Below, piece after piece: positions 1 to 6,907 of a stretch of 6,907 bases of DNA (position 1 is the first letter of the stretch; every line of letters starts with the position of its first letter). This DNA comes from Bacteroidales bacterium (GTDB taxonomy: Bacteria; Bacteroidota; Bacteroidia; Bacteroidales; P3): positions 1-6,907 of the forward strand of contig JAFWOP010000100.1 in the NCBI GenBank assembly GCA_017545365.1. The letters run 5' to 3'. The position numbers were made by a program, and so were the translations under genes. The notes under the pieces were generated by a model that was not told where the DNA came from, did not search any database, and was given only the letters and a program-made list of their open reading frames with translations.

Positions 1-763
1 CGCTGTTGATATAGGTGAGTGTGGCACGGCGCGGCGAGCGTATCTTGGCATCGTCGAGCGTGCGGCGCTTCTCGTCGAGTCCCTTCTCGAAGATGCCGTT
101 CTGTAGTTGCTGCATACGGAGGTCGGCCTGACGCACGCGCTGCTCGTTCTGGTACTGCTGGCGCAGTTGCGAGAGTTGCATCCGCGCGGTTTTTAGTGTT
201 GTCTCGGCCTGACGTACGCGGTCGCGGGTGCCGGAGCCAAGGCTGTCAAGGTAGAGTTCGTTGCGCAGCTGGGCTTCGAGTTGCGAGAGTTCCATCTCCT
301 TCACCTCAATCTGCATCCGGCGGTCGGAGAGTTGCGTCTCCACGTTGGCCTTCAGCTGGGCGGTCTGCTGACGGCGTATCTCGCGCTCGTCGAGGGCCTT
401 GGAGTAGTCGGTCTCAGCGGATTGCAAGTCGAGGCGCAGCAGGGGTGTGCCCATGTCCACGCTGTCGCCGCTGTGGGCATAGACCTCGAGTATCTGGCTG
501 CTGATGGGCGACACGATGATTTCCTCGAAGGCGGGCACGATGCGCCCCGTGGCCGAGACGCTGACGTCGATGGTGCCGCGGTCCACCTCGGAGATAATGA
601 GTGCCTTGCGGTCGAGGGTCGGAATCATCTGGGCGCCGAGCCAGGCACCTGCGCCGAGTACCGCCGCCGCGACGGCCACGGCAACGACCGTCTTCCGTAT
701 CTTTCGCTTTCGCTGTTCGCTGACAGGAATCTGCCTGTCCATGGTCTGATTGTCGTTCTTCAT
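1..763 (-). CDS. Periplasmic adaptor (HlyD/MacA-like membrane fusion protein), 5' part
   Basis: This is the N-terminal 254 residues of an adaptor that links an inner-membrane exporter to a TolC-type outer-membrane channel; the 3' end lies beyond the left edge. The protein has a short basic cytoplasmic N-terminus (RKRKIRKT), one membrane anchor at about residues 24-45, then the first half of a biotinyl-lipoyl-like domain (VSPISSQILEV...HSGDSVDMGTPLLRLD, about 84-113). A long Q/E/R-rich coiled-coil hairpin follows (about 115-238), and the second lipoyl half begins at KIRSPRRATLTYI. That order is typical of MacA/HlyD adaptors. The start is the ATG at 763-761; an in-frame ATG at 742-740 (MDRQIPVSEQ) is a plausible alternative start. 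A sigma-54 promoter lies 43-59 bp upstream. The family is clear, but the partner transporter (ABC or RND) is not visible; the TolC at the right end and knowledge of such operons favour a MacB/FtsX-like ABC exporter. Confidence 0.9.
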   Translation of the reverse strand, partial: MKNDNQTMDRQIPVSEQRKRKIRKTVVAVAVAAAVLGAGAWLGAQMIPTLDRKALIISEVDRGTIDVSVSATGRIVPAFEEIIVSPISSQILEVYAHSGDSVDMGTPLLRLDLQSAETDYSKALDEREIRRQQTAQLKANVETQLSDRRMQIEVKEMELSQLEAQLRNELYLDSLGSGTRDRVRQAETTLKTARMQLSQLRQQYQNEQRVRQADLRMQQLQNGIFEKGLDEKRRTLDDAKIRSPRRATLTYINS

Positions 764-805: not shown

Positions 806-822
806 TGCAAAATCAGTGCCAA
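806..822 (-). promoter_or_regulatory. Sigma-54 (-24/-12) promoter of the adaptor gene
   Basis: On the minus strand this reads TTGGCACTGATTTTGCA. It matches the RpoN consensus (TGGCAC, then TTGC) with the invariant GG and GC separated by exactly 10 bases, as the holoenzyme requires. The -12 C lies at 807, which places transcription start near 795 and gives a leader of about 32 nt before the ATG at 763. The call rests on sequence match, spacing and position. Sigma-54 promoters need an ATP-dependent activator bound upstream, which fits the paired dyads at 862-903. Confidence 0.85.
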
Positions 823-861
823 AAACGTAAACCGCTGAAAATCAATAGGGATAATAAAAAT

Positions 862-903
862 GAGTGTCCGGAAATGGACACTCGTCTGTTCGGAAATGGA
901 CAG
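862..903. promoter_or_regulatory. Tandem dyads, likely activator (enhancer) sites for the sigma-54 promoter
   Basis: Two copies of a palindromic site, TGTCCGGAAATGGACA (865-880) and TGTTCGGAAATGGACA (887-902), differ at one base and are offset by 22 bp, about two helical turns, so they present the same DNA face. The first is part of a perfect 8-bp inverted repeat, GAGTGTCC/GGACACTC (862-869 and 876-883). The asymmetric spacer GGAAAT is identical in both copies and in the same orientation. Their centres lie about 78 and 100 bp upstream of the predicted start site, where sigma-54 activators usually bind. The activator itself is not in this window. On the minus strand the first dyad can also form a hairpin followed by a T-rich run, so it may additionally end the transcript of the gene at 917-1357. 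Confidence 0.7.
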
Positions 904-916
904 TTCCCAGCAGTTC

Positions 917-1357
917 CTACAAAGACAAAGCCAGGAATTTGTGTCCCAAATCGTGGAAAGCCGCTTCCAGCTGTTTCGCCTCGGCGGGTGTGAAGCGAGC
1001 CTCCTTGCCGTTCACCTTGTTACCATTGATGCGCTGCATGAGCCACGACTGGCTCTTGCCGAAATAGACCCGTGCAATCTGCGACAGGTTGATGAACTTC
1101 GGCATGTCGCCCATCTTCTTGCGAAGTGCCTCGGCACGAAGGTCGGCAATGTCCTCGTCCATGGCGGCCATCATACGCCTAAAGTCAGTAATCATAGCTT
1201 CGTTGTACTCTTTCTTCTCTTCGGGCGTCATGGCATCCTGCACTTCATGCTGATACCTTTTTGCCGCCTCAAGTTCTTCAGGCGTAATGGCCTTATCATA
1301 GACCTCTGCAATCTTCTTGTGTACAGGGTGTGTAATGTAATTATTCAAGTTTCTCAT
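917..1357 (-). CDS. DUF5053-like small protein
   Basis: A 146-aa hydrophilic, mostly helical protein with no signal peptide or membrane segment, so probably cytoplasmic. The N-terminal two thirds (about 1-85) is charged and looks like extended helices. The C-terminal part (about 88-143) contains LSQIARVYFGKSQSWLMQRI, then NGNKVNGK and RFTPAEAKQLEAAFHDL. It reads like a compact helix-turn-helix region and resembles, from memory, the conserved C-terminus of DUF5053 proteins of Bacteroidota and their phages. The ATG at 1357-1355 is preferred over an upstream TTG at 1387-1385, because ten weak residues would otherwise be added and the TTG leaves almost no gap to the upstream stop. It is the second gene of a pair, 37 nt after the 58-aa gene. 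Function is unknown; DNA binding is only inferred. Confidence 0.7.
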   Translation of the reverse strand: MRNLNNYITHPVHKKIAEVYDKAITPEELEAAKRYQHEVQDAMTPEEKKEYNEAMITDFRRMMAAMDEDIADLRAEALRKKMGDMPKFINLSQIARVYFGKSQSWLMQRINGNKVNGKEARFTPAEAKQLEAAFHDLGHKFLALSL

Positions 1358-1718: not shown

Positions 1719-2276
1719 ATGAGTGAAATCGAGACAAACATCAAACTGATTGAGGCGGCTGCGCGAGGCGAGCGCAGGGCTTGCGACGCCATCGTCCGCA
1801 AGTTCGGGCAGACCATGTTCGGCATTATCGCCCGACTGGTGGCCGACCGCCGCGATGCCGAGGAACTGACGCAGGACGCGCTGCTCAGGGGCATCCGCCA
1901 TATAGACAATTACGACCCCATGCGGGCGCCGCTGAAGTCGTGGCTCTGCCGCATTGCCTACCGCACGGCGCTGAACCATCTGCGACGACCCACCATAGAG
2001 ACAGCAAGCATCGACGACCTGCCGCCACCGGCGGAGAGCGACCTGGTGGACAGTTTTATGCGTGAACCTGATGACCATCGCGTAGAACTGCTACAGCGGG
2101 CCATACGGCGGTTGACGGACGACGAGCAACTGTTGGTGACACTATTCTACTTCGAGGAAATGCCGTTGGCAGACATCGCCTACATCATCGCACAGACGCC
2201 CAATGCCCTTGGCGTGCGGCTGCATAGAATCCGACAGAAACTATACAACATGATAAAACAACAAGATGCTCTATGA
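1719..2276 (+). CDS. ECF-family RNA polymerase sigma factor
   Basis: A 185-aa group 4 sigma factor that would direct RNA polymerase to a small regulon. Region sigma2 spans about residues 22-90, with the DAEELTQDALLRGIRHIDNYD core-binding segment and the PLKSWLCRIAYRTALNHLRR promoter-melting segment. A linker of about 30 residues (IDDLPPPAE...) follows, then sigma4 at about 122-178 with a helix-turn-helix (FEEMPLADIAYIIAQTPNAL, then GVRLHRIRQKL). Regions 1 and 3 are absent, as expected for ECF factors. The ATG at 1719 is chosen because sigma2 follows it at the normal distance; an upstream TTG at 1632 would add 29 residues without family resemblance. The stop overlaps the next start (ATGA, 2273-2276), so it is translationally coupled to its anti-sigma factor. 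No convincing promoter was found upstream. Confidence 0.95.
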   Translation: MSEIETNIKLIEAAARGERRACDAIVRKFGQTMFGIIARLVADRRDAEELTQDALLRGIRHIDNYDPMRAPLKSWLCRIAYRTALNHLRRPTIETASIDDLPPPAESDLVDSFMREPDDHRVELLQRAIRRLTDDEQLLVTLFYFEEMPLADIAYIIAQTPNALGVRLHRIRQKLYNMIKQQDAL

Positions 2277-2803
2277 AACAGACCGAACAACTACGCCACG
2301 ACGACAAGAACCTGCGCGAGGCCGTGAGGAGAGACATGGCCGACGCGCCCCAGTTGCCCGCCGATTTCTCGCTGCGCCTACAGCAGCAACTGCAGGCTGA
2401 CATCAGCCCGCGCAGACGCTGGTACCGTATGGCCGCTGCCATCGCCGCCCTGATGGTGGTGGGAGGATTGGTGTGGGCTGTCATCCCACTCCTGACCGCC
2501 ACGAAGGGAGCAGTTGAGCAAACAGAAACACAATCCACTCAGGGAAGCATAGAGGAGGCCCCTATGGTATATTTCTCCAACACGCCGCTCGACAGCGTGC
2601 TCTCGGTCGTGGGTACCCATTATGGCCAGGCCGTCTGCTTCCGCGACGACGCTTTGCAACGGCTACGCTTCACCATCGCATGGGACAGCGTGCAGCCGCT
2701 CGGCGTGTTTCTCGACAATGTGAATGAGTTCGAGGGACTGCTCCTGACGGATGAGCGCGACACCATCTTTGTGGAACCGATGGGAAAGGAGGAAGAGCCA
2801 TGA
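2273..2803 (+). CDS. Compact anti-sigma factor with C-terminal DUF4974 (STN-like) domain
   Basis: A 176-aa single-span protein predicted to hold the ECF sigma factor at the membrane. The cytoplasmic part (about 1-51) contains LPADFSLRLQQQLQ, resembling the short N-terminal segment of Bacteroidota anti-sigma factors. A membrane helix covers about 52-74. After a polar linker, residues about 98-168 form a DUF4974/secretin-like domain (YFSNTPLDSVLSVVGTHYG, then LRFTIAWDSV and DTIFVEP) that should lie in the periplasm. Typical FecR-type anti-sigma factors of this phylum are about 300 residues or more, with a FecR domain between the helix and this domain; here that domain is missing. The gene overlaps both neighbours by ATGA. 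Its identity as the partner of the upstream sigma factor is inferred from coupling and architecture. Confidence 0.85.
   Translation: MKQTEQLRHDDKNLREAVRRDMADAPQLPADFSLRLQQQLQADISPRRRWYRMAAAIAALMVVGGLVWAVIPLLTATKGAVEQTETQSTQGSIEEAPMVYFSNTPLDSVLSVVGTHYGQAVCFRDDALQRLRFTIAWDSVQPLGVFLDNVNEFEGLLLTDERDTIFVEPMGKEEEP
2785..2792 (+). promoter_or_regulatory. Strong Shine-Dalgarno sequence for the barrel gene
   Basis: AAAGGAGG sits inside the last codons of the anti-sigma gene, 7 nt before the ATG at 2800. It is a near-complete anti-16S match, unusual in Bacteroidota, where most genes lack a recognisable Shine-Dalgarno site. It supports the start at 2800 and suggests efficient translation at the overlap. 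It also encodes Lys-Glu-Glu-rich residues, so chance is possible. Confidence 0.6.
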
Positions 2804-5800
2804 AGCACATCACACTACTTGTAATAGCAGTATGCTCGATGCTCTGCGCTTCGGCACAGACCTGGTCGCTTGCCGACGCCTTGGAACGCCTGAACCGACA
2901 GCAGAGCGACTACGAAATCTCCTTCATCCACAACGAACTGGAGCACCTGCAAGTGGTGGCCGACACGGAGGACATGAGCGTGCCGAAGGCCGTGAAGCGG
3001 ATGACGAAGAACCAGCCTGTACGGGTCGTGACGAAAGGCCGGCAGATATTCGTGCAGTACAAGCCCAAGACCGACAAGCGCAAGATATGGCTTGCAGGGA
3101 AGGTCTGTGACTATGTGACGCATCTCGAACTACCACACTCCACCGTCCGACTGTTGACGGCCGATGGTCAGGTCGTGGATTCCTGCGAGGCCATCTCATT
3201 CATGCAATACGGCAACAATCCGCTCATCGAACATTCCGAGTTCGCTTTCCAGGTGCCTGCCCGCCCTGCCAATTATATCATCAAGGCCTCCTACGTGGGA
3301 TTCCAAACCACTGAGATGGCCTATACCTTCGACAATATCTACCGCCGTGAGCAACGGCGCGAACTGCCGCCCGTCTATATGAAGCGCGAGTCGCGGATGC
3401 TGCAGGAGGTGGTGGTCATGGCCACGAAGGTGCAGTTCTATTATAAAGGCGACACGCTCGTCTTCAATGCCGATGCTTTTGAGCTGGCCGAGGGGTCGAT
3501 GCTCGATGCACTGGTGCGCCAGTTGCCGGGCGTGGAACTGAAGGAGGGCGGTCGCATCTACCACAACGGCAAGTACGTCGATGCGCTGTTGCTCAACGGC
3601 AAGGACTTCTTCAGGGGCGACCACACCATCATGCTCGACAACCTGCCAACCTACACGGTGAAGACCATCGAGATCTACGACAAGTGGGGCGACCAGAGCG
3701 AGTTCCTCGGCCAGCACGTGATGGGCGACAACCGCTACGTGATGGACGTGAAACTGAAGAAGGAATACTCCATCGGCACGATGGCGAACGTGGAAGCGGG
3801 AGCAGGAACGGAGGAAAGATGGCTGGCCCGCCTCTTCGCCCTCCGCTTCACCGACCATTCCCGCCTCGCCGCCTACGCCACCGCCAACAACCTGAACGGC
3901 GACCGCAAGCCCGGCGAGACGGGCAACTGGAACCCGCAACGAATGCAGGACGGCGGCAGGCTGACCCAGCAGCAGACGGGCTTTGACTACAGCGTGGACG
4001 ACCGCAACAGCGTATGGAAAGCCGACGGCAATGTGCAAGTGACGCACACCGACCTCGACCGCCAGACGCAGACCAACCGCCAGAACTACCTGCCGACGGG
4101 CGACACCTACGACCGCATCAACCAGGCCCAGCGCGACAAGAACCTGAAGCTAAACACCAGCCACCACTACTACCGCAACTTCGGCATGTGGAACCTCGAC
4201 GTGCGCCCCTCGCTCGACTACGAGAAGTTCGACAACGCCAGCACCTACTCGTCGCTCACCACACGCAACGACAGCACGCTCAACAATCGCTCGGCGACGG
4301 AAGGAGACGCTTATCTGAACAAAAACCAGCAGCGCGGCCTCACCGAGGGCCACCAGCTCAGCGGCGCCCTCCGCCTCAACAGCACCTTCAAGTTCCACCA
4401 CAGCCCCGACTGGGTCTCCCTTCGTGCCGAAGCCAATTTCAACGACCGCCAGGAAGACCGCCACCACCGCCAGCATGTCTCCTATGCTGCGACCCCGTCG
4501 CAGCCCTCCCGGCCCCTCAACCGCTACCACCGCAACCACCCCAACCGTTCTTGGCGCGCCGAGGCCGGCGGCACCTATCAGATCAACTTCACCAACCTGA
4601 TCCGACTGCAATTGAACGCGAGCTATACGCACAACGACCGCCGCCGTGAGTCGTCACTCTTCGATATCGACACCACATACGCCCTCGGCCAGTTGCCCTC
4701 TGCGCGTGAATATGAGCAACACATTGACCACCGCAACAGTTACACGAGCCACTTCGACGAAGACATCTACGAATTCAGCCCCCGATTCTTCTACAACGCC
4801 TACAGCGAAGACGAGACTTGCCAGAAAAAGTGGTGGGCACAACTCGGCTTCCCCGTCACCGTCGTTCGCCAGAAACTACATTACCAGCGTGGCAGCATCG
4901 ACACACTCGTCACTCGCAACACGATGCCTGTCAACGTCTGGGATTGCTTTGTCGAATACAAAACCATCAACCATGAGACAGGTCATGCCCAGAAACTGAA
5001 TCTCCAGTACATCGCCCAGACATCGACGCCCGATTTGCAGAACCTCGTCGATATGCGCGACGATACCGACCCGCTGAACATCCGCATAGGCAATAACAGC
5101 CTGCGCAATGCCGTCAGCCACCAGTTTACCTTCGGCCAGCAATGGGGAAACGCCAACCAGAAAGAGACTTCTCATCATTACTGGCTCGGCTACACCATTG
5201 TCCAGAACGCCCTCGCCATGGGCTACAGTTACGACCCGCTGACAGGCATCCGCACGTGGCAGGCCGACAACGTGAACGGCAACTGGAGCGCCGATGCCAA
5301 CTACAGATTCAACACCGCCATCGGCAAGAAGCATCCCCTGCGCCTCGGCCTCAGCCCCACCATCCGCTACCAGCACAGCATCGACCTCGTTGACCAGCAG
5401 CGCAACACCGTCAACACACTCTCCCTCGACAACACCATCACCCTCTCCTACAAACTGGGCAGCCACGCCCTCAGTTTCAAGAGCACTGCCCTCTGGCAGC
5501 GCTTCACCAGCCCCTCCGTCACCTATGCTGCGACCCTGTCGCAGCCCTTAACCCTCACCAACGCCCTGACCGTCCTCCTGAAACTCCCCTGGAAAATGGA
5601 AGTCAGCACCGACCTCACCCTCTACACCCGCACCGGCTATGCCGACGATGCACTGAACACCAACAGCCTGGTCTGGAACGCCCGCCTCTCGCGTCCCTTC
5701 CTGAAAGGCCGCCTCCTCGTGATGCTCGACGGCTTCGACCTCCTCGGCCAGCTCGACAACGTCACCCGCACCGTCAACGCCCAGGGCCGCACCGAGACCT

Positions 5801-5880
5801 GCACCAACGTCCTGCCCCGCTACGCCCTTCTGCACCTCGTCTATCGGTTCAGCAAGCAGCCGAAGAAGAAGTATCAATAA
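2800..5880 (+). CDS. Outer-membrane beta-barrel protein (TonB-receptor-like transducer) with STN domain
   Basis: A 1026-aa outer-membrane protein. A signal peptide (MKHITLLVIAVCSMLCASAQ) is cut near residue 18-20; SMLC does not fit a lipobox. An STN domain follows (about 21-88, SLADALERLNRQQSDYEISF...RQIFVQY), then a carboxypeptidase-regulatory-like beta-sandwich (about 94-195). The plug-like region (about 202-320) contains EVVVMATK, GDTLVFNADAFELAEGSMLD, ALVRQLPGVELKEGG and DALLLNGKDFFRGD, characteristic of Bacteroidota barrel proteins. Residues about 325-1017 form the barrel, ending in an aromatic-rich strand (LHLVYRF) with a nine-residue basic tail. The STN domain and the sigma/anti-sigma genes directly upstream suggest a surface-signalling transducer. 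No SusD gene follows, so a glycan role is unsupported and the ligand is unknown. The gene carries two copies of a palindromic 27-bp repeat. Confidence 0.9.
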   Translation: MKHITLLVIAVCSMLCASAQTWSLADALERLNRQQSDYEISFIHNELEHLQVVADTEDMSVPKAVKRMTKNQPVRVVTKGRQIFVQYKPKTDKRKIWLAGKVCDYVTHLELPHSTVRLLTADGQVVDSCEAISFMQYGNNPLIEHSEFAFQVPARPANYIIKASYVGFQTTEMAYTFDNIYRREQRRELPPVYMKRESRMLQEVVVMATKVQFYYKGDTLVFNADAFELAEGSMLDALVRQLPGVELKEGGRIYHNGKYVDALLLNGKDFFRGDHTIMLDNLPTYTVKTIEIYDKWGDQSEFLGQHVMGDNRYVMDVKLKKEYSIGTMANVEAGAGTEERWLARLFALRFTDHSRLAAYATANNLNGDRKPGETGNWNPQRMQDGGRLTQQQTGFDYSVDDRNSVWKADGNVQVTHTDLDRQTQTNRQNYLPTGDTYDRINQAQRDKNLKLNTSHHYYRNFGMWNLDVRPSLDYEKFDNASTYSSLTTRNDSTLNNRSATEGDAYLNKNQQRGLTEGHQLSGALRLNSTFKFHHSPDWVSLRAEANFNDRQEDRHHRQHVSYAATPSQPSRPLNRYHRNHPNRSWRAEAGGTYQINFTNLIRLQLNASYTHNDRRRESSLFDIDTTYALGQLPSAREYEQHIDHRNSYTSHFDEDIYEFSPRFFYNAYSEDETCQKKWWAQLGFPVTVVRQKLHYQRGSIDTLVTRNTMPVNVWDCFVEYKTINHETGHAQKLNLQYIAQTSTPDLQNLVDMRDDTDPLNIRIGNNSLRNAVSHQFTFGQQWGNANQKETSHHYWLGYTIVQNALAMGYSYDPLTGIRTWQADNVNGNWSADANYRFNTAIGKKHPLRLGLSPTIRYQHSIDLVDQQRNTVNTLSLDNTITLSYKLGSHALSFKSTALWQRFTSPSVTYAATLSQPLTLTNALTVLLKLPWKMEVSTDLTLYTRTGYADDALNTNSLVWNARLSRPFLKGRLLVMLDGFDLLGQLDNVTRTVNAQGRTETCTNVLPRYALLHLVYRFSKQPKKKYQ
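4481..4507. repeat. Palindrome-bearing 27-bp repeat, copy 1
   Basis: This 27-bp stretch inside the barrel gene recurs at 5522-5548 with a single difference (C4496 versus T5537). Its core is a perfect 8-bp inverted repeat, GCTGCGAC (4486-4493) and GTCGCAGC (4497-4504), around a 3-nt loop CCC. In frame it encodes YAATPSQP. Confidence 0.8.
5522..5548. repeat. Palindrome-bearing 27-bp repeat, copy 2
   Basis: Second copy, matching 26 of 27 bases at 4481-4507. The inverted repeat GCTGCGAC (5527-5534) and GTCGCAGC (5538-5545) is intact; only the loop changes, to CCT. It lies in the same reading frame as copy 1 and encodes YAATLSQP. The sequence outside the repeat is not similar between copies. Confidence 0.8.
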
Positions 5881-5937: not shown

Positions 5938-6907
5938 TTATTCTATCAGTTTCTCCACGTCGGCGCTGAGGTCGCAGCCGCGCTCGAAGTCCCAGAGGGC
6001 GATGGAGCGGAGCTGATAGTAGTAGTACCAGTAGTTGTGGAGCTGGGCGATGCGGTTCTGGCGGGCCTCGTCCTTGGCGGTCTGGGCGGCGGAGAGTTCG
6101 AGGGTGGAGATGCTGCCGATCTTGAACGTCTCGACGTTGGTGTGGTAGCGGCGGCGGGCGATGGTGTCGGCCTCGACGGCGATGCGAAGTTGCTCGGCCT
6201 GGTTGTTGAACTGCTCGGTCAGGATAAAGATGTCCTGGCGGAAGTCCTGCGACTGCTGGCGCAGCTGGCCCTGTATGATGTCGCGATTGCTCTCGGCGAG
6301 GCGACGCTGTCCCTTGCGCTTGCCCCAGTCGAGCAGCGGCACGGTGATGCCGACCTGCACGACCTCGTTGCTGAGGAGGTTACGGTAGGCGTTGCTTATG
6401 TTCTCGCCCGTGCCGGTGTAGCCGAGTTGGGCGTAGAGGTTGACGCTCTGGCGGTTGGCGCGAGCCGAGGCCACGGCATAGTCGGCCTCCATCTGGCGAC
6501 GGCGCATGGTGGTGGCGAGGGCGTTGTTCTGGAGGGCGTGGCTTAGCACGTTGTCGTAGTCGAGGCGCACCTGCGGCACATCCTCGGGCACCGACGGCTC
6601 TATGTCCGCCTCCACATCGAGGAATGAGCGGAGGGCGAACTGACGAGTTTGGCGGTTGCTTTCACTGTTGGTCAGGGCGCTGCGGGCGGTAAGCACGTCG
6701 AGGCGCAGTTGCAGCACGTCGTTCTCGCTGATGGTGCCCATGCGGCGCTTGGCCTGCGCCACCTCGTAGAGTTTCTCGGCGGTCTGCAGGTTCTGGCGGG
6801 CGATGTTCACCTGTTCGCCGGCCAGCAACAGACCGAAATAGAGGCTGATGGCCTGCATAGCCACCTGCTCCGTCTCGGTGAGGAAGCGGGCCTGTGCCTC
6901 GCGGTAG
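5938..6907 (-). CDS. TolC-family outer-membrane efflux protein, 3' part
   Basis: This is the C-terminal 322 residues of an outer-membrane channel; the start lies beyond the right edge and the frame stays open to the last base. The visible part shows the TolC pattern of long helical stretches with an internal structural repeat: RMGTISENDVLQLRLDVLTA in one half and FKIGSISTLELSAAQTAKDE in the other, each the equatorial G-x-I-S segment followed by a long helix. Strand regions include VNLYAQLGYTGTGEN and VVQVGITVPLLDWGKRKGQR, whose P-L-D-W-G-K motif is typical of the family. The C-terminus (YYYQLRSIALWDFERGCDL) resembles channels encoded with ABC-type exporters in Bacteroidota. It should pair with an adaptor such as the one at 1-763, but it belongs to a separate transcript. 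Confidence 0.93.
   Translation of the reverse strand, partial: YREAQARFLTETEQVAMQAISLYFGLLLAGEQVNIARQNLQTAEKLYEVAQAKRRMGTISENDVLQLRLDVLTARSALTNSESNRQTRQFALRSFLDVEADIEPSVPEDVPQVRLDYDNVLSHALQNNALATTMRRRQMEADYAVASARANRQSVNLYAQLGYTGTGENISNAYRNLLSNEVVQVGITVPLLDWGKRKGQRRLAESNRDIIQGQLRQQSQDFRQDIFILTEQFNNQAEQLRIAVEADTIARRRYHTNVETFKIGSISTLELSAAQTAKDEARQNRIAQLHNYWYYYYQLRSIALWDFERGCDLSADVEKLIE

Follow-up and report, generated by a model that had tools for sequence, protein, structure and literature searches.

A tandem pair of 16-bp dyads before a predicted sigma-54 promoter, and its recurrence beside exporter genes in Bacteroidota

What reads the two near-identical inverted repeats that stand before the gene of an HlyD-type periplasmic adaptor in this stretch of Bacteroidales DNA (6,907 nucleotides, hereafter the window)? 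The initial annotation of the sequence took them for the binding sites of a sigma-54 activator, one of a whole family controlling exporters. Judged by sequence comparison, it is very probable that the pair is the enhancer (upstream activating site, UAS) of a sigma-54 promoter driving the adaptor gene, and that it is read by one clade of NtrC-family regulators.

The dyads and the promoter region of the window

The dyads read TGTCCGGAAATGGACA (865-880) and TGTTCGGAAATGGACA (887-902). As the initial annotation had noted, they are identical at 15 of 16 bases, which was seen directly in the window as well as by pattern search, and they lie 22 bp apart from centre to centre, or two helix turns. The pattern TGTYCN6GGACA has three matches in the window against 0.04 expected, one of the three being the palindromic copy on the other strand; the dyads are not a product of chance, because none of 200 shuffles reached the observed count of at least three.

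On the minus strand the order is distal dyad, a 6-bp linker, proximal dyad, 24 nt, TTTCAGCGGTTTA, 6 nt, TGGCACTGATTTTGCA and the adaptor start codon (Table 1). The -24/-12 element is a perfect TGGCACN5TTGCA (minus strand, 821-806) ahead of the adaptor gene, and placing the C of its -12 element at base 807 gives a predicted +1 at about 795. The dyad centres then fall at -77.5 and -99.5, in good agreement with the values of about -78 and -100 proposed at the outset. Taken alone, the box is a weak and suggestive sign, because 31 of 200 shuffles of the window also contain at least one -24/-12 match with up to one mismatch.

The adaptor more likely starts at ATG 742 than at 763, because M8-D9 (counted from 763) is invariant in 25 aligned adaptors. 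The fragment in the window matched no HlyD family in Pfam and gave just a sub-threshold coiled-coil match; a full-length relative that is 95% identical to it (loci L059/L165) does match HlyD.

Table 1. Positions of features in the window and, where marked L165, in a locus of its closest relative (genome G001).
Feature	Position	Strand	Basis
HlyD-type periplasmic adaptor, N-terminal 254 aa, continuing past the window edge	2..763	-	alignment, relatives
Predicted sigma-54 -24/-12 promoter TGGCACTGATTTTGCA; predicted start about 795	806..821	-	pattern search
IHF-type box TTTCAGCGGTTTA, 8/9 to WATCARNNNNTTR, lying 6 nt ahead of the -24 box	828..840	-	consensus match
8-bp perfect inverted repeat, then ATTTTTATTA; possible added terminator role for the DUF5053 gene	862..883	-	terminator search, fold
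Proximal dyad TGTCCATTTCCGGACA (transcription sense), putative upstream activating site nearest the promoter	865..880	-	pattern search; consensus from other loci
Distal dyad TGTCCATTTCCGAACA (transcription sense)	887..902	-	pattern search
Upstream gene DUF5053 (PF16476), same strand as the adaptor	917..1357	-	Pfam
TolC/OEP-type outer membrane channel, start outside the window	5938..6906	-	Pfam
Regulator of G001	L165:1896-3341	-	profile, Pfam
PAS/HATPase kinase of G001	L165:697-1896	same strand as the adaptor	Pfam

Paired dyads across the phylum and the genes beside them

A scan for TGTYCN6GRACA-N6-TGTYCN6GRACA in one genome per species gave at least 119 stretches. Among the matches listed, 98 are Bacteroidota by title (a raw count, unscaled to the share of Bacteroidota in the collection), with pairs in Prevotella, Bacteroides-type genomes, Flavobacterium, Sphingobacterium, Pedobacter, Spirosoma, Larkinella and Pontibacter, and 21 lie outside the phylum, some of them (e.g., in Methanosarcina and Thermoplasmata) chance-like. 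The tighter word TGTYCRnnnnYGRACA is present in both halves of 107 pairs (scan loci and window). The initial annotation had regarded the spacer GGAAAT as conserved, and in Bacteroidales this word is indeed common in either orientation: among 15 pairs the commonest six-letter spacer is ATTTCC, present in 8 of 30 dyads, and three more have the mirror image, GGAAAT. It is not conserved phylum-wide, however; outside Bacteroidales the four central letters form no fixed word (72 distinct oriented pairs), and the conserved word is TGTYCRnnnnYGRACA.

The distance between the dyads is less strict than the 22 bp first proposed. When the linker was left free (0-30 nt, at least one outer TGTCC required) in 296 genomes of the phylum, including that of the window's closest relative (G001, the centre and a known match), strict pairs were found in nine genomes, G001 among them, under a pattern that misses pairs having TGTTC at both outer ends. 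The other 295 genomes gave 10 strict pairs in 8 genomes, with linkers of 4 (one), 5 (seven) and 6 (two), and the reversed pattern with a free linker gave none in the 296. Allowing up to two mismatches in ten pair-bearing genomes, we found 21 linker-6 and 29 linker-5 places, where the reversed pattern gave 0 and 1. In the same order, the counts are 5 and 12 in Larkinella sp. C7 (G004), 3 and 8 in Sphingobacterium detergens (G003), and 3 and 6 in Pedobacter nutrimenti (G010). Each of the five Prevotella/Bacteroidaceae genomes carries 1-3 linker-6 places and 0 or 1 linker-5 places, and a further pair with linker 7 is present in three of the five. Linkers of 4-7, that is, a range of 20-23 bp, rule out a strict 22-bp spacing.

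At 35 of these 50 relaxed places a gene for a MacB-type permease, an adaptor, TolC, an ABC ATPase or a regulator of the clade described below starts within 900 nt and points away from the pair; the remaining 15 have no expected gene alongside. By genome, the expected gene is present at 10/17 places in G004 (10 of 17 candidate sites in Larkinella precede a permease or adaptor gene), 8/11 in G003, 8/9 in G010, 3/3 in G009, 2/2 in G012, 1/1 each in G007 and G031, 1/2 in G001 (the other place being at a contig end), 1/2 in G008 and 0/2 in G006.

The neighbours of the scanned pairs are likewise mostly exporter genes or regulators; the initial annotation had named enrichment before adaptor, ABC or TolC operons as a sign in its favour. 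On either side of a pair we kept the longest ORF (150 aa or more) with a start at -10 to 420 nt, which gave 140 candidates, and 101 of them are MacB/FtsX permeases, HlyD adaptors, TolC, ABC ATPases or NtrC-type sigma-54 response regulators of one clade. The largest cluster comprises 40 permeases (MacB_PCD in 40/40, FtsX in 37) and the second 25 adaptors including that of the window (HlyD_3 in 23). In the third, from which one 805-aa protein of L054 was excluded, Response_reg and Sigma54_activat were found in 21/21 aligned regulators and HTH_8 in 19, the two exceptions being truncated where the locus ends. Among 39 leftover ORFs scanned (14 of the 53 leftover ORFs being excluded from the Pfam tallies) there are 11 OEP/TolC proteins, 4 ABC ATPases and 5 Pontibacter fatty-acid hydroxylases. 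At three Flavobacteria loci (L013, L069, L082) the regulator and adaptor genes are divergent, with the pair between them.

Two outcomes that would have spoken against its reading were named in the initial annotation: absence of the dyads before orthologous adaptor genes, and their presence only together with DUF5053. Pairs in fact recur before adaptors and permeases phylum-wide; strict adaptor orthology together with a pair is seen in the Prevotella-type relatives L052 and L059, because the other adaptors are no more than 14-21% identical to the window fragment. Among the loci compared, the DUF5053 gene is confined to the window, L028 and L059, together with the L059 copies L134 and L165. L052, whose adaptor is 94% identical over the window fragment, keeps the pair, and tblastn finds no DUF5053 in the 8 kb covered, which speaks against a dependence of the dyads on this gene.

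A few pairs have other surroundings. At five Pontibacter loci (L029, L037, L046, L062, L071) they lie before genes of fatty-acid hydroxylase type, by about 110 nt in four and by 4 nt in L029 (by ORF call), with no clear -24/-12 box in the sequences inspected. Pairs of TGTCCGTATAAGGACA occur in a Desulfobacteraceae and a Proteobacteria MAG (L054:2488 and L115:453), 61-62 nt before -24/-12-like boxes, and a TGTCCC...GGGACA pair stands about 40 nt before such a box in Sulfurihydrogenibium (L078:5890); these related paired words are perhaps sites of other NtrC-type regulators.

Promoter distance, IHF-type box and the regulator clade

The relation of the pair to the promoter was followed in 89 regions downstream of a pair toward its target gene, 12 of them from loci of the later genome search; this set excludes regulator-side and fatty-acid hydroxylase regions, other neighbour classes, and L041_L, L031_L and L050_R. 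A match to TGG[CT][AC]N6-7TG at 25-100 nt past the pair is present in 64 of the 89 (on average 1.9 and at most 6 in 200 rounds of mononucleotide shuffling), 25 being without a box under the pattern used, and the other strand of the same regions has none. The 64 regions hold 68 boxes, at 42-45 nt (16), 51-57 nt (34), 63-67 nt (15) and 69, 71 and 80 nt (one each) from the pair, so that the distances are mostly 43, 53 or 63 nt and differ by steps of one turn. Among 62 non-identical regions the phase has a resultant length of 0.74 at 10.5 bp, 0.73 at 10 and 0.72 at 11, kinship among the regions inflating its nominal significance; the three periods score alike, and none of them is singled out. The distance class roughly tracks taxonomy (about 43 nt in Bacteroidales, 53 in Sphingobacteriales and Cytophagales, 63 in Flavobacteriales), and one Larkinella genome has both 52-54 and 63 nt.

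Between pair and promoter there is frequently a box close to WATCARNNNNTTR, which we take to be the IHF consensus and after which we call the box IHF-type. In 37 of the 64 regions it is matched at 8-9 of 9 positions between the pair and the -24 box, where 100 shuffles average 4.8 regions and never exceed 11; a perfect match is present in 18 (shuffle mean 0.3, maximum 2). In 41 of the 64 regions 6-7 nt separate the end of the best match from the TGG; in the other 23 that match lies elsewhere, notably in most Flavobacteria-type loci. A search blind to the dyads, for the IHF-type box followed by N6 and TGGYA in ten dyad-bearing genomes, gave 32 matches, and in 18 of the 30 examined as loci a pair stops 23-25 or 33-35 nt short of the box; many of the remaining 12 can be chance, because the reversed pattern gives 8 matches over both strands. 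The box may be bound by a protein of the IHF/HU type.

A profile built from the dyad-linked regulators found NtrC-type matches in all of ten genomes, with members of the clade among them, and Sigma54_DBD was found in 11/11 genomes including G001. In six genomes (G002, G003, G004, G009, G012, G031) no more than about 1.6 kb separates a clade member from a pair; in G001, G007 and G008 one lies about 10-16 kb downstream on the same strand and contig, and in G006 members and pairs are on separate contigs. G001, the genome of L059, is the closest relative of the window, with DNA identities of 94.1% over 3.8 kb and 95.7% over 2.1 kb. Its regulator and kinase are encoded about 9 kb downstream of the adaptor, and the window's regulator is known only via this relative. 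Behind the adaptor, on the same strand, follow an ECF sigma factor, two proteins with no Pfam match, one with a sub-threshold thioredoxin match, one with no match, an outer-membrane barrel, the regulator and the kinase. This array contains no ABC permease, for which reason the label of exporter at the window rests on the adaptor and on the other loci. The array of G008 runs from the pair through two permeases, an ATPase, two more permeases, TolC, an adaptor, two thioredoxin-type proteins (one weak) and a HipA-like protein to the regulator and kinase.

The dyad-linked regulators have a common C-terminal helix (approximately GN[IL][ST]..A..LG[IL][ST]R..LYR[RK]..K), which sets them apart from most NtrC-type regulators otherwise encoded in these genomes. 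We selected 28 loci of the clade regardless of dyads (L174-L201): by recount, a pair scoring at least 21/24 lies within 1.5 kb in 17, with 11 having no pair at this threshold in that range, and an HlyD gene is present in 23. Loci of other NtrC-type regulators (L147-L154, L156-L164 and L210-L216, controls unmatched by genome) had a pair in 0 of 24. Before the recount the scripted classes stood at 21/34 and 2/30, the two (L191 and L196) having the clade helix, which the text pattern had missed. In the shuffle control the threshold was reached by 1 of 10 shuffles of the control L153 and by none of the clade loci. One locus of G004 (L145) has a clade-like helix and a MacB neighbour but no pair. 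A clade member scoring above 590 bits is held by 30 of 118 genomes of the phylum, with a profile that leans toward Flavobacteria and under-scores Bacteroidales members. The initial annotation's connection of the dyads with activators of exporters is supported, since pairs go with exporter genes and with phased -24/-12 boxes, but they go with one regulator clade rather than a family.

The clade regulators resemble AtoC, NtrC, ZraR and PrsR in having receiver, Sigma54_activat and HTH_8 domains, and the best PDB match is an NtrC-family regulator (4l4u). They differ from these proteins in score and in loop: among the 25 best matches, the regulators of L165 and L013 fall below every NCBIfam cut-off (AtoC, NtrC, ZraR, GlrR and PrsR equivalogs), with best scores of 377 of 714 for AtoC (L165) and 380.6 of 502.6 for the PEP-CTERM response regulator (L013). 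The sigma-54 contact loop is usually given as GAFTGA (PMC3162934); most members have GAFTDA or GSFTDA in its place, and L008 and L047 have GSFTGA.

Clade members with pairs are also found outside the phylum, in two Kordiimonas (linker 8), a K189A-clade bacterium, a Sphingomonas MAG and a Proteobacteria MAG; in a Cloacimonadota MAG one member has a weaker pair (21/24) and the second has none. At L202-L207, in alpha- and gammaproteobacterial genomes and the Cloacimonadota MAG, clade members, dyad pairs and HlyD genes occur together, a distribution pointing to transfer of the whole module or to an older origin.

Several further features of these loci may be recorded here. The window encodes on its plus strand (1722-5880) an ECF sigma factor, a protein that matches FecR_C below threshold and a protein of 1026 aa related to an outer-membrane barrel, and the adaptor array of the relative (L165:3575-12417, minus strand) has a second ECF sigma factor, 39% identical to that of the window, and an outer-membrane barrel (30% identical). 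This suggests that an ECF sigma factor/barrel module was duplicated and wired into the sigma-54 array. The gene of the 1026-aa protein contains the palindromic GCTGCGACCC[CT]GTCGCAGC twice in frame (window 4486-4504 and 5527-5545), encoding YAAT[PL]SQP, and L165 and L028 have slightly altered versions of it. In the regulator of L165 (1896-3341, minus strand) the linker between receiver and AAA+ domain has in-frame repeats GGGAGAGGGG[CT][CT]GGGGGTGAGGC coding for GRG[AV]GGEA; GGEA stretches precede the DNA-binding helix in other Prevotella/Bacteroidaceae regulators (L169, L170, L146).

Alternative readings, proposed mechanism and meaning

The dyads could act mainly in RNA, as an intrinsic terminator or attenuator hairpin of the DUF5053 gene with no regulator involved. 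Extended outward, the proximal dyad forms a perfect stem of 8 bp with ATTTTTATTA behind it, just beyond the DUF5053 stop (predicted fold -14.3 kcal/mol), and a terminator search of the window found one terminator-like site against a shuffle mean of 0.3; the distal dyad, however, folds poorly in the sense strand (-3.9), and L052 keeps the pair with neither DUF5053 nor T-run. The letters of 152 dyads (76 distinct oriented pairs, in the sense of the downstream gene) bear on the same point. Positions 4/13 are C-A in 47, C-G in 46, T-A in 44 and T-G in 15, and positions 6/11 are G-T in 53, G-C in 45, A-C in 34, A-T in 19 and T-T in 1. The excess of wobble G-T over mismatched A-C at 6/11 is what a hairpin would favour, and so are the Watson-Crick partners at 4/13 in 90 of the 152 dyads, which symmetric protein sites predict likewise; but at 4/13 the RNA-breaking C-A is found 47 times against 15 for the tolerated T-G. 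As we read them, positions 4/13 speak clearly and positions 6/11 mildly against a function in RNA. We therefore reject an RNA hairpin as the conserved function, pairing not being kept across loci, and Rfam gave no match at the gathering threshold. Recognition of DNA fits better than RNA folding because the spacer letters vary and pair-breaking letters are common; the initial annotation's preference for a protein is backed by these letters, but its own argument, a conserved spacer, is weak, as the spacer varies. A terminator would also leave the tandem spacing and the phased -24 boxes unexplained, and we consider this reading improbable, while it is possible that the proximal dyad of the window doubles as a terminator of the DUF5053 gene.

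A different regulator might bind the dyads, for example a repressor acting on a sigma-70 promoter, the closeness of the sigma-54 regulator then being incidental. Several Flavobacteria pairs lie within about 20 nt of the start of the divergent regulator gene, where repression of that gene is possible. Yet centres at about 78 and 100 bp before the sigma-54 start are activator-like, the pairs are phased with the sigma-54 box, and the clade is the common neighbour while 24 loci of other NtrC-type regulators are without a pair; we regard such a regulator as very unlikely. That the pair is a chance repeat or a mobile repeat element is scarcely credible, even though the half sites are short, the window alone has two copies and some scan matches in unrelated groups look accidental: the shuffles of the window, the recurrence beside one gene class, the empty result of the reversed pattern in 296 genomes and the flanking DNA, which differs among loci where the words persist, all speak against it.

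An enhancer read by the regulator clade also has the parts of a UAS of an NtrC-family activator. Inverted repeats in tandem at whole helical turns are present, a correctly oriented -24/-12 box follows downstream (perfect in the window), a putative IHF-type bend site, known by its consensus match, lies between enhancer and promoter (frequent, not universal), and a candidate cognate AAA+ activator with a DNA-binding domain is encoded on the same contig in the closest relative.

Among described systems, the sites of GlrR/QseF before glmY of Enterobacteriaceae are the nearest published word that we met: TGTC-N10-GACA or TGTN12ACA, 18 bp long, in three copies and IHF-assisted, according to the portions available of PMC6075780 and PMC4987338. 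The likeness lies in repeated TGTC...GACA inverted repeats upstream of a -24/-12 promoter and in a sigma-54 response regulator, here a predicted one. Unlike those sites, the present ones are TGTY-N8-RACA, 16 bp long, in two copies 20-23 bp apart, and their targets are exporter genes and not a small RNA. A GlrR-type site is ruled out by the TGTY-RACA spacer of 8 bp and not 10, and the clade regulator scores far below the cut-off of the GlrR model (about 290 of 763 bits).

Predicted sigma-54 promoters have been reported as enriched before COG0577 FtsX-like ABC permeases in Bacteroidia and other classes, in what was termed the first evidence linking sigma-54 to this ABC family (PMC12316311, PLoS One 2025, as far as available); its main text has no occurrence of "UAS," "upstream activat," "IHF" or "HlyD." For Flavobacterium psychrophilum, experimental -24/-12 promoters (motif SM4) have been described, one operon's being verified by mutation, with chaperones, gliding motility and exported proteins as listed targets; the available part of that paper describes no enhancer site and assigns no activator (PMC9723704). 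Sigma-54 has been treated as a controller of the cell exterior (PMC3162934, in part). The accessible portion of a paper on PrsR mentions an enhancer and gives no letters for it (PMC9850573), and one on Desulfovibrio has no occurrence of "tgtc" as a word start (PMC4641369). Among the titles and abstracts listed in searches of the open-licence literature, none describes this enhancer, its regulator or its phasing, and the papers searched give no published regulator-to-site assignment for tripartite exporters of Bacteroidota.

From these parts, their spacing, their conservation and the genes linked to them we infer a mechanism whose protein steps are those established for NtrC-family activators. 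Each dyad would be bound by a dimer of the clade regulator (receiver, sigma-54 AAA+ and Fis-type helix), which is encoded near the exporter genes and often beside a histidine kinase. The kinase would sense, probably, envelope or toxic-compound stress and phosphorylate the regulator. Two dimers two turns apart would then nucleate the AAA+ ring, and the bend at the IHF-type box, together with a whole-turn distance between dyads and promoter, would present the ring to the polymerase waiting at 821-806.

We lean toward a wider reading as well, if with a good deal of reserve: that one clade, with one 16-bp code doubled at two turns and phase-locked via an IHF-type box to sigma-54 promoters, may be a phylum-wide master switch for MacB/FtsX-HlyD-TolC exporters, governing some 1-3 promoters in Prevotella/Bacteroidaceae genomes and as many as 17 in Larkinella, the module having crossed into, or being common to, a few Proteobacteria and a Cloacimonadota.

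With the site word, the spacing rule and the regulator clade in hand, the regulon would be listable for any Bacteroidota genome. The three distances between dyads and promoter (about 43, 53 and 63 nt), combined with a nearly fixed IHF-type box, amount to a natural experiment on looping and helical phase in sigma-54 activation. Tripartite exporters, whose control this pair would represent, are among the factors that determine what Bacteroidota can withstand in gut, rumen, soil and water.
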